Shown one piece after another: positions 11,892 through 14,827 of a stretch of DNA of 31,497 bases (its first letter is position 1; every line of letters begins with the position of its first letter). The notes beneath the pieces were generated by a model. It was not told the origin of the DNA and did not search any database. It saw only the letters and a program-made list of their open reading frames with translations. A program made the translations under genes and the position numbers. Location of the stretch: positions 1 through 31,497 of IMG/VR virus record IMGVR_UViG_3300048922_000079, one strand, 5' to 3'. Origin of the DNA: a virus.

Positions 11892-13298
11892 ATGCCTGAT
11901 ATTTCAACACCCAACCTCGACTATAACGACATGGTTGAGGCCTGGGATATCAACGATGCGCTAATGGGCGGTACGCTTGAAATGCGCCGACAGGGTAAGT
12001 TGTATCTTCCGAAATGGCCCAACGAAGACCCTGACAGCTACAAAGAACGATTAGCAGCTGCAACCTTGCTGCCTGCCTATGAAGAAGCGATTAAACAGAA
12101 CATTGGACGCGTATTTGCTGAGCCAACGGTATTGAGCGAAAGCGCGCCGGAAATTATCCGAAAGCTTTCTGCCGACATCGATATGGAAGGCAACCGCCTT
12201 GATGTATGGGCTCAGCAATTCTTCAGCATTGGATTTCAGTATGGTCTGGTTCATGCGCTGGTGGACTACCCGCGAGTGGATCCGAAATCTGTAAGGACAA
12301 AAGCAGATGAAAAAGCGATTGGAAACCGGCCATACGTAACGATGCTAAATCCCCGTCAGGTGATCGGCTGGAAGTCGAAAGTCGAGGGTGGAAAGGTCAT
12401 CCTTACTGATTTGCGTATTCGTGAAACCATCATTATTGACGGTGATGACTACGGGCAAACGAAGGTAGAACAGATCCGGCATATCATGCCTGGTAAGGTT
12501 GAAATCTATCGGCGTAACAGGGGCGATAATGGTGAAGCACAATGGACGCTTCACGAAGAATGGCAAACCAGCCGTAACGATATCACGCTAGTGACGCTCT
12601 ACACGAAACGAACAGGATTTATGCGCGGATCTCCGCCGCTGCTTAACCTGGCTTTGCTGAATATCAAGCACTGGCAAAGTCAGAGTGAGCAGGACAACAT
12701 CCTGCATGTTGCCCGTGTGCCGTTGCTGGTGGCTTATGGACTGGCAGAAGGTGAAACGTTAACGATCGGCTCATCAACAGCGACTCATTTCGACAACCGC
12801 GAAAGGCAGGGTCTTGAATATGTCGAACATACCGGATCGGCCATTGAATCCGGTGAAACGTCGCTGGAAAAACTGGAAGATCAGATGCGACAGGCCGGGG
12901 CAAAACTCTTACGTGCCGAGAACACCTCGACCAAATCTGTTGACCAGACCAATGAAGAGCGCATGCAGGAGAATTCGCCGCTGTATACGATGGCGAGTTC
13001 GCTGGAGGACGCGCTCGATAACATCCTGCAGATCATGGCGGAATGGCTCGGTGAAACTGAGGGTGGCAATGTCGATGTACGCACTGAACTGGATGTTTCT
13101 GCTCAGACGTTTGATGCCTCAGCTGCAACGGCTGTTCAGTCACTTCGGCAGGGTGGTGATATTCGCCAGATTGATGCGGTTCGCGTTCTTCAGGCGCTGA
13201 AATTCATCGACCCGGACGCGAAACCTGAAGAGGTGATCGACGAACTGAGGAACCAGCAGGTGACGCTTGTCGGCGGCCTGAATAATCCAGGTGGTTGA
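11892..13298 (+). CDS. Portal protein (DUF4055 family)
   Basis: A 468-residue protein with the DUF4055 signature: WDINDALMGG, the LYLPKWPNEDPDSYKERL segment (about residues 38-56), YEEAIKQNIGRVFAEP, and MLNPRQVIGW near 150. DUF4055 proteins occupy the portal slot between terL and the Mu-F-like head gene in many siphophages, and I assign the portal role on that basis: a dodecameric ring at one capsid vertex through which DNA passes. A long helix near residues 330-380 (LEKLEDQMRQAGAKLLRAEN) fits the stem/clip helices of portals. No clear Shine-Dalgarno precedes ATG 11892; it follows terL by four bases. Confidence 0.85.
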   Translation: MPDISTPNLDYNDMVEAWDINDALMGGTLEMRRQGKLYLPKWPNEDPDSYKERLAAATLLPAYEEAIKQNIGRVFAEPTVLSESAPEIIRKLSADIDMEGNRLDVWAQQFFSIGFQYGLVHALVDYPRVDPKSVRTKADEKAIGNRPYVTMLNPRQVIGWKSKVEGGKVILTDLRIRETIIIDGDDYGQTKVEQIRHIMPGKVEIYRRNRGDNGEAQWTLHEEWQTSRNDITLVTLYTKRTGFMRGSPPLLNLALLNIKHWQSQSEQDNILHVARVPLLVAYGLAEGETLTIGSSTATHFDNRERQGLEYVEHTGSAIESGETSLEKLEDQMRQAGAKLLRAENTSTKSVDQTNEERMQENSPLYTMASSLEDALDNILQIMAEWLGETEGGNVDVRTELDVSAQTFDASAATAVQSLRQGGDIRQIDAVRVLQALKFIDPDAKPEEVIDELRNQQVTLVGGLNNPGG

Positions 13299-13299
13299 G

Positions 13300-14412
13300 A
13301 TGGCGACGGCGAATGAAAAACTCAGTGACGAAAGCCTGGCTCATGCGATTTGGGTGAGTCAGTACAGCACCGGTGTCGCAAACAGGATGATAAAAATCCT
13401 GAATGACAGCGATGCAGAGCTGACGGCCAGGCTGCTGGTGGCGATGGATACCCTCGATGCGGAAAGTTTCACGGTGTCGAGGCTAGAATCTCTTCTGGTC
13501 AGCGTCAGGGCGTTAAATCGTGATGTGGTTCAGTCGATGAGCGAAAGCCTCGCCGGCGAGCTGCAGGAACTGGCGCAGCATGAGGCAGGATTTCAGCTAA
13601 GTCTCTTCCAGTTTGCGATCCCCGATGATGTGCTGGCGCTTCATCCGCTGGTGGGAATTTCACCGGACGCCGTTTATGCCGCGGCAATGGCCCGGCCTTT
13701 TCAGGGGCGGTTACTGAGCGAGTGGGCCAGTAGCCTTGAAGCCGACCGCATGACGCGCATCACCAATACCGTCAGGCAGGGCTTCCTGCTGGGCGATACG
13801 CATGAGCAAATCGCCAGAAAGGTCCGTGGTCATGCTAACCGTGGCTATCAGGACGGCGCGCTGCAAATGAGCCGGTCAAACGCGGGCAGTATTGCCAAAA
13901 CAGCCGTAGGACACCTTGCGCAGACAGCGAGGCAGAGTTTTGCGACGGCGAACGACGACATTCTGAAGGGTAAACAGTGGTTGTCTACTTTGGATAACCG
14001 GACATCAAAGGATTGTCGGATCCGCGACCGCCTCAAGTACACGCTGGATAACAAACCAATAGGGCACAAGGTGCCTTATCTGCAGGGACCGGGGAAAATC
14101 CACTATTGCTGTCGAAGCACCGAAACTTACATCCTGAAATCGTCCGAGGAGTTGGGTATCAAAGTCGGCGAAATCAAGGATAGCTCGCGCGCCAGTATGG
14201 ACGGGCAGGTTCCGGCTGACACGAATTACCAGGAATGGTTCTCCCGGCAGTCGTTAACACGACAATCAGAGATTGTCGGTGTGACACGCGCCAGGCTCAT
14301 ACGTGATGGTGGCATGTCTCCTGATGAATTCTATAGCGACAGAGGCGAATGGCTGACGCTGGAGCAGTTGCGGGAACGTGACGAACGGGCATTTAAAGAT
14401 GCTGGGTTGTGA
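13300..14412 (+). CDS. Head morphogenesis protein (Mu gpF-like)
   Basis: A 370-residue minor head protein. Start at ATG 13300 with CCAGGTGG upstream; the GTG at 13291 overlaps the portal end and is less likely. The C-terminal half carries the Mu F domain: KQWLSTLDNRTSKDCRIRD, VPYLQGPGKIHYCCRSTE (about residues 225-280), with paired cysteines that may bind metal. The N-terminal part is helical. These proteins sit inside or at the portal of the prohead and are needed for head assembly. Position after the portal is canonical. Confidence 0.88.
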   Translation: MATANEKLSDESLAHAIWVSQYSTGVANRMIKILNDSDAELTARLLVAMDTLDAESFTVSRLESLLVSVRALNRDVVQSMSESLAGELQELAQHEAGFQLSLFQFAIPDDVLALHPLVGISPDAVYAAAMARPFQGRLLSEWASSLEADRMTRITNTVRQGFLLGDTHEQIARKVRGHANRGYQDGALQMSRSNAGSIAKTAVGHLAQTARQSFATANDDILKGKQWLSTLDNRTSKDCRIRDRLKYTLDNKPIGHKVPYLQGPGKIHYCCRSTETYILKSSEELGIKVGEIKDSSRASMDGQVPADTNYQEWFSRQSLTRQSEIVGVTRARLIRDGGMSPDEFYSDRGEWLTLEQLRERDERAFKDAGL

Positions 14413-14424
14413 TAGGGTAAATTC

Positions 14425-14554
14425 GTGGTGAATGTAGGATGCTGACCTGCGCGCCAAAGCGTCCCGTGAGAAACGGGCAAGCCGGATACCAGATTCACTT
14501 AGGTGAATCCCCGCCGAACGTTTTAGCGTTTGCCGTGGCAGCACCGGCCACCAC
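14425..14554 (+). ncRNA. Candidate structured RNA in the head operon
   Basis: A non-coding stretch in an otherwise tightly packed operon folds by eye into a closed structure. An outer stem pairs GTGGTG (14425-14430) with CACCAC (14549-14554), and an inner stem pairs TGCTG (14440-14444) with CAGCA (14539-14543). Inside lie three hairpins: CCCGT/ACGGG (14463-14477), GATTCAC/GTGAATC with a UUAG tetraloop (14492-14509), and CGAACG/CGTTTG (14515-14532). GCCGG (14481-14485) can also pair with CCGGC (14544-14548) as a pseudoknot. Possibilities are an orphan HEARO/omega-like RNA, a leader regulator of the small gene at 14588, or a phage sRNA. I cannot name the class. Confidence 0.5.
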
Positions 14555-14587
14555 ACTTTATCATAATGGCTCAGGAGGACTTTTAGC

Positions 14588-14827
14588 ATGAAGATTTTCT
14601 TAAGAGGCGGGCCACTGGATGGTGAGTCCACGCCTCTTCGCACTGATGACTACCGTGTACCAATTGAACGAGTAGAATTTCTTCGGCCTATTTCTGATGT
14701 ATCCCCGTTGTTTGATAAAGGTTTTGACGCTCACAACCTAAAGCAAGATGTCCTGATATACACACTCAAGAGGATAGCAATCGACAGGGAACACCATTAC
14801 TACGAATACCACTATCAAGGTCGCTAA
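14588..14827 (+). CDS. Small GGPLDG-motif protein, 79 aa
   Basis: Starts MKIFLRGGPLDGESTPLRTD after CAGGAGGA. The GGPLDG turn near the N-terminus, a central strand (VPIERVEFLRPI) and a final HHYYEYHYQGR segment are features of a widespread small phage/bacterial protein type without known function. The gene is preceded by the structured segment and followed at once by two terminators, so it looks like an insert within the head operon rather than a virion gene. Confidence 0.65.
   Translation: MKIFLRGGPLDGESTPLRTDDYRVPIERVEFLRPISDVSPLFDKGFDAHNLKQDVLIYTLKRIAIDREHHYYEYHYQGR

Follow-up and report, generated by a model that had tools for sequence, protein, structure and literature searches.

A folded RNA between phage head genes belongs to a common, apparently unnamed RNA family with a fixed chassis and an exchangeable arm

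Phage transfer RNA (tRNA) loci and so-called gene deserts have long been known for stable RNAs without an explanation, such as bands C and D of phage T4 and the small RNAs (sRNAs) of phage PAK_P3. PAK_P3 sRNA2 is flanked by phage tRNA genes, and sRNA1 and sRNA2 are abundant late in infection (PMC4933390). Among prophage RNAs, copies of STnc100 (RF02076) are transcribed in enterohemorrhagic Escherichia coli (EHEC), and one has been detected by Northern blot (PMC5331693). A 2026 preprint reported that PasD, which is structurally related to STnc100, is an Hfq-associated sRNA (PMC13192938). Here we analyzed a 31,497-nucleotide (nt) viral sequence (IMG/VR record IMGVR_UViG_3300048922_000079; hereafter, the window), in which a first-pass annotation, made from the letters alone, had proposed an unexplained structured RNA between head genes. 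Our analysis confirmed that a folded RNA is present at positions 14425-14554 on the plus strand, and this RNA is a member of a very common phage RNA family that apparently has no name.

Folded alone, the 130-nt RNA reached -52.6 kcal/mol (z = -3.72), a value that none of 200 dinucleotide shuffles equaled. The minus strand of the same segment folded more weakly (z = -1.99), as did the whole 175-nt gap between the flanking genes (z = -1.52); therefore, the signal lies on the plus strand inside 14425-14554. In the predicted fold (Table 1), helix P1 closes hairpins P2, P3, and P4 in a row, P5 is nested within P1, and P6 and P7 lie within the loop of P5. The RNA thus has five internal hairpins (P2, P3, P4, P6, and P7) instead of the three first described, including the one with a 7-bp stem and a UUAG loop (P6), which carries compensatory changes in relatives. 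Two nested closing stems had been proposed: the inner one (P1) is kept in close relatives, whereas the outer one (14416-14421/14557-14562) is not. The GCCGG/CCGGC pairing, previously taken for a possible pseudoknot, is the nested stem P5, which changes to GCCUG/CAGGC in a compensatory manner. A likely tertiary contact pairs UGCUG (14440-14444) with CAGCA (14539-14543).

BLAST identified four Klebsiella phages that carry the RNA at approximately 85% identity, and IMG/VR scans found it in dozens of related prophages. The covariation set for the window's own group comprised 16 distinct sequences. In this alignment, which was fitted to the structure so that the counts lean toward it, 97.8% of cells were paired (slid controls, 47% or less), and both sides had changed in 7 pairs and 22 cells, compared with shuffle means of 3.9 pairs and 5.7 cells; these changes are also visible on plain inspection of the sequences. 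None of 500 shuffles attained the cell count or the covariation score. The changes were located in P5 (GCCGG/CCGGC to GCCUG/CAGGC), P6, and P7. P1, P2, P3, P4, and the kissing loop were nearly invariant, and the group set alone gives them no test. Compensatory changes, whose absence among homologues the first-pass annotation had named as grounds for dropping the candidate, were therefore present.

The wider family was reached through a BLAST match of the promoter and RNA start in E. coli, which proved to be a shorter RNA that shares both ends. A pattern for these ends (GUGGUGAAUGCGCAGGCUGAUGCGC, a hypervariable insert, and GCCGGAGAUCAGCACCGGCCACCAC) matched 90 IMG/VR contigs. Members share a chassis that consists of the closing helix P1, the hairpin P2, and the hairpin P5, which runs on into P1, and the loops of P2 and P5 are complementary. 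The topology is tRNA-like (acceptor, D-arm, variable middle, and T-arm), with the P2-P5 kissing loop placed like the tRNA elbow. A covariance model, R2, was built from 21 family RNAs, none of which came from the window's group. Its match to the window covered exactly 14425-14554 (E = 7e-6 in 195 kb searched), and it also recovered the RNAs of L134, L138, L155, and L161 (L numbers denote the compared sequences); no match was found in the 88-kb phage PAK_P3, which served as a control. No chassis-family RNA searched against Rfam gave a match, and the family is absent from Rfam 15. A limited search of the open-access literature yielded no paper on the family, which motif catalogues such as PMC8040213 could list under a number.

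Across 37 chassis matches, 99.0% of cells were paired and both sides had changed in 10 of 16 pairs, compared with pairing of 55% or less in slid controls. We then took only members with a P1 other than GTGGTG (99 unique sequences), with the 3' side left free in the search. The P5 hairpin was followed directly by the member's own P1 complement in 83 of the 99, and in 16-24 when P1 was exchanged between members. Variants with their own partners included TGGATG:CATCCA, CAGATG:CATCTG, GATCTG:CAGATC, GGTCTG:CAGACC, and TTGTTG:CAACAA, among others. In 68 of the 83, the P5 loop contained UCAGC, which complements the fixed P2 loop, although that side had been left free in the search. Of five P2-loop variants, one was compensated (GCUGA:UCAGC to GUUGA:UCAAC, L416), one formed a G-U pair, and three were mismatched. 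Sequence comparison thus supports the kissing loop well in the family; in the window RNA itself, where the register is one off from the family GCUGA:UCAGC, we infer it.

The part between P2 and P5 behaved quite differently from this core. The 82 distinct chassis RNAs carried 52 insert types, which were almost wholly different from one another and near letter-identical within a type across unrelated phages. One insert was nearly identical in Gamaleyavirus IME11, Bas80, and Tyrion and was also found on a chassis with a TGGATG P1. Since the same insert occurs on chassis that differ in P1 and types recur in unrelated phages, the arms move between chassis and experience their own selection. Nearly all of the window insert is paired (P3 and P4, plus P6 and P7 in the P5 loop), which leaves little free single strand. 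When the inserts were compared with E. coli 16S, 23S, and 5S ribosomal RNA (rRNA) and the ssrA region, no general likeness was found (1 of 52 types shares 13 nt with 23S). That type, found in L182, L218, and L229, has CGTAACTTCGGGA in common with position 1686 of 23S rRNA, which may be a mimic or chance.

The 175-base gap that holds the window RNA is bounded upstream by a MuF-type gene for head morphogenesis (13291-14412; Phage_Mu_F match) and downstream by a 79-amino-acid gene (14588-14827), which begins 33 nt downstream of the RNA and is followed by two terminator-like hairpins and a scaffold-like gene. The RNA was present in 29 of 85 MuF-scaffold junctions, and the other 56 ran directly to the terminator or contained another gene; therefore, it is an accessory cassette. 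This absence from 56 junctions also led us to reject a packaging RNA like the phi29 pRNA. In relatives, the RNA is followed by MKIF.. (as in the window), by MDSQKQ.., by a DUF551-like gene preceded by an Rfam int-alpA element, or by a terminator alone (L138). In L161-L163, it lies between the lysis genes and the terminase small subunit, flanked by a predicted promoter (GGCATTCACTGAGTGCCTGTGATAATGTC) and an intrinsic terminator. Predicted stand-alone transcription units have the order promoter-RNA-terminator in L161-L163 and L289 and RNA-terminator in L138.

This variety of neighbors largely refutes the alternative suggestion of a cis-acting leader for the small gene at 14588, whether as a riboswitch or in translation control. 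The two do share an operon, with 33 nt between the RNA and the gene. However, elsewhere it precedes three other genes (MDSQKQ.., DUF551-like, and terminase small subunit) or only a terminator, and the gene at 14588 has its own Shine-Dalgarno sequence outside the fold, so that we consider this role highly improbable. The 79-amino-acid product (MKIFLRGGPLDGES..) matched no Pfam or PHROG family above the cutoff, and its gene moves together with a terminator of its own and belongs to the accessory cassette. A 50-amino-acid open reading frame that overlaps the RNA (14439-14591) was rejected as coding, because the indels of homologues are not multiples of three and the frame is not kept.

The promoter type of L161-L163 also precedes other morons in phi80, ZF40, mEp390, and others; the window retains only its -10 part (TGTGATAGGGTAAATTC), which gives the stop codon of the MuF gene. 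A conserved moron promoter (GGCATTACAGCAGGCATTCACTGAGTGCCTGTGATAATGTC) stands ahead of unrelated cargo genes or RNAs between lysis genes and terminase in L134, L161, L164-L168, L170, L179, and L289, an arrangement shared by numerous lambdoid phages and 204 E. coli genomes. In Enterobacteria phage mEp390 (L164, approximately 2034-2165), the cargo is an RNA that resembles a tRNA, has a T-arm (GGGTTCGAATCCC), and ends in CCTGATTACCA; ARAGORN made no call on it.

An element that marks a hot spot of cassette gain and loss, as in 29 of the 85 MuF-scaffold junctions, could also work as DNA, that is, as a recombination or insertion sequence whose hairpins serve, for example, as a cassette boundary that lets morons move, and identical chassis could promote recombination. 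We regard this as very unlikely. The G-U pairs, the kissing loop, and the P2/P5/P1 junction kept by compensatory changes are features of RNA; moreover, the fold signal lies on one strand, and promoters and terminators bracket the RNA.

BLAST placed the family in 317 of 50,697 phage records (Klebsiella, Escherichia, Pseudomonas, Salmonella, and others) and in 1,153 of 5,426 E. coli genomes, with 403 of the places on plasmids; the counts of 317 and 1,153 are approximate, as short matches are included. Most members lack their own terminator and are embedded in arrays of tRNAs and other RNAs. In a P1-like plasmid, a chassis RNA comes right after tRNA-Asn and tRNA-Thr, together with several related RNAs, and in HK620 one lies between pR'/qut and the late terminator tQ. 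Taipeivirus and Gamaleyavirus phages have 2-3 kb without annotated genes that are packed with structured RNAs. Stretches of about 3 kb in Klebsiella phage UPM 2146 (L273, 700-3706) and L278 hold hardly any credible gene and contain several different RNAs that are structured or tRNA-like and have long closing helices; these stretches are rich ground for new RNA families.

The same arrays contain segments that resemble transfer-messenger RNA (tmRNA), at approximately 1600 in L272 (HK620), 1620 in L273, and 1618 in L274 (IME11), and also in L277 (Bas80), L278 (Magnus), L196, and L260. In these, AUAAAUGCAAACGA.. opens a short frame that encodes tag-like peptides (ANEEMYLAVA, ANDNTFLAVA, ANDDVVLMAA, and ANDDLMLMAA); the E. 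coli tmRNA tag is ANDENYALAA. Rfam and ARAGORN called no tmRNA in these segments.

Searching the window and the region 14250-14750 against Rfam gave no family match, including to HEARO (RF02033). In that region, the sole match up to E = 5 was SAM_alpha on the minus strand, which we rejected (12.3 bits against a cutoff of 36, on the opposite strand). A HEARO/omega-like guide RNA that has lost its nuclease had been suggested by a faint resemblance of GCCGGATACCAG, which is the only point in its favor. As family membership, this is refuted, and we give it almost no credence: besides the missing Rfam match, the T of GAUACC is A in most relatives, and the first-pass annotation had already listed no IscB or IsrB gene. 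The protein scan covered only seven neighbors of the RNA, which are ordinary head or packaging proteins or small proteins. When the 16-mer GCCGGATACCAGATTC was used as a probe, it gave 10 matches, about the chance expectation. Erwinia jumbo phages gave a 24/25-nt match inside a coding gene; its surroundings were unstructured, and it was judged to be chance. In addition, 13 of 14 matches from a pattern scan of genome contigs were chance matches in coding sequence.

At the level of sequence comparison, then, the fold is conserved, accessory, and horizontally mobile, has an exchangeable arm, and has no tie to the gene downstream. We consider the window RNA to be probably an independently folding, trans-acting phage noncoding RNA with a fixed chassis and an exchangeable arm, whichever host machinery it engages; the suggestion of a phage sRNA, offered earlier as an alternative, is supported to this extent. 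The chassis may give the RNA nuclease-resistant ends, and a conserved host component may recognize it, because phages of several genera share the same chassis and no phage gene accompanies it. In view of the tRNA-like layout and the tRNA-locus context, this component would most likely belong to the machinery of tRNA/translation or RNA processing. Specificity would reside in the insert, acting as a decoy or antagonist of an RNA-directed factor of the host or a rival phage, or as a regulator. The little free single strand in the window insert favors recognition by shape over antisense pairing. More tentatively, the family could represent new and very widespread modular phage RNA effectors, in which a host-recognized kissing-loop chassis carries dozens of unrelated arms as weapons and counter-weapons in phage-host or phage-phage conflict, in tRNA loci shared with tmRNA-like RNAs.

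Several points weigh against the trans-acting chassis RNA as we describe it. ARAGORN and Rfam found no tRNA or tmRNA in the window. The kissing loop UGCUG:CAGCA is paired in 16 of 16 group members but invariant and therefore shows no covariation there; among the five P2-loop variants in the family, three are uncompensated (two of these are identical in sequence). Mimicry of rRNA by the inserts was rejected, as there was no excess over shuffles except in one type, which weakens an rRNA decoy. Furthermore, STnc100 and PasD are discussed as base-pairing sRNAs, PasD on Hfq (PMC13192938), which favors regulation by pairing.

An sRNA of that kind, in which the chassis would be a stability cap and a seed in the insert would pair with a host or rival-phage mRNA, possibly with Hfq, is possible but on balance unlikely. 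It agrees with the layout that STnc100 shares, its occurrence in the same arrays, the transcription of STnc100 in EHEC (PMC5331693), the Hfq association of PasD (PMC13192938), and the intrinsic terminators after the RNA in L138, L161-L163, and L289. However, the window insert is almost wholly paired, most members lie in tRNA/RNA arrays and lack their own terminator, and the window gives no match to the STnc100 model.

Table 1. Positions of the RNA and its parts in the window.
Feature	Position	Strand	Evidence
Structured RNA, whole element	14425-14554	+	Fold z = -3.72; match to independent covariance model R2, E = 7e-6; conserved in phages
P1, 5' strand GUGGUG (partner 14549-14554, CACCAC)	14425-14430	+	Helix paired in 16/16 members of the group; replaced wholesale, with compensation, across the family
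P1, 3' strand, continuous with P5 3' strand	14549-14554	+	Fold; pair counts in group and family
P2 hairpin, GUAGG[AUGCUGA]CCUGC	14434-14450	+	Fold; group pairs; family P2 is GCGCA[GGCUGA]UGCGC
Kissing-loop half UGCUG, P2 loop (partner 14539-14543)	14440-14444	+	100% paired and invariant in group; family GCUGA:UCAGC with one compensated change
Kissing-loop half CAGCA	14539-14543	+	Group pairing; family counterpart
Exchangeable arm: P3 (14451-14454/14459-14462) and P4 (14463-14467/14473-14477)	14451-14477	+	Wholly different in other family members
P5, 5' strand GCCGG (partner 14544-14548, CCGGC)	14481-14485	+	Compensatory GCCUG/CAGGC in L161-L163
P5, 3' strand CCGGC	14544-14548	+	Group pair counts
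P6 hairpin, 7-bp stem, UUAG loop, inside P5 loop	14492-14509	+	Compensatory GAUUCAC/GUGAAUC to GACUCAC/GUGAGUC
P7 hairpin, inside P5 loop	14512-14535	+	Both sides altered in 4/9 pairs
Putative remnant of moron promoter -10 box (TGTGATAGGGTAAATTC), also supplying MuF stop codon	14408-14424	+	Aligned with TGTGATAATGTCAAATT ahead of the RNA in L134, L161, L167, L179, L289

The one chassis, with strong covariation support, recognizes many of the unexplained RNAs of phage tRNA loci and gene deserts across phages of Escherichia, Klebsiella, Pseudomonas, and other hosts. The fixed core can now be separated from dozens of swappable arms, which makes function testable, and many phage intergenic regions that are read as empty likely hold RNA genes.

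Compared with known systems, the T4 band C and D RNAs (by description only) and PAK_P3 sRNA1 and sRNA2 resemble the family as phage RNAs of unknown function. PAK_P3 differs in having no R2 match, and identity with its two sRNAs is not supported. PAK_P3 sRNA2 lies inside a larger tRNA-like unit (L281, 41216-41578) with a 7-bp acceptor-like helix (GCTGTGT..ACACAGC), a T-arm, and an enlarged middle. The late 6S RNA of lambda (pR' to tR') can be likened, by position alone, to the HK620 chassis RNA, which has the same late-leader position, whereas most family members lie elsewhere. The int-alpA RNA (RF02996) is likewise a phage-borne structured RNA and, in L134 and L167, closely follows the chassis RNA on its downstream side, but it is a separate element of a separate family. 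STnc100, with its relative PasD, has more in common with the family: it is a prophage RNA whose closing helix ends in ...GGUG/CACC..., followed by a GAAU linker, a 5-bp P2 hairpin, a long variable middle, and a C/G-rich P5-type hairpin that leads straight into the closing helix (Rfam structure line), and both occur in the same phage RNA arrays. In contrast, their conserved sequences differ (GCGCAGGCUGAUGCGC and GCCGGAGAUCAGCACCGGC), and insert diversity is far greater in the chassis family. R2 matched one STnc100-like RNA weakly (E = 0.04), and the STnc100 model gave no match in 14250-14750 up to E = 5; therefore, the chassis family is at most a sister family of STnc100.
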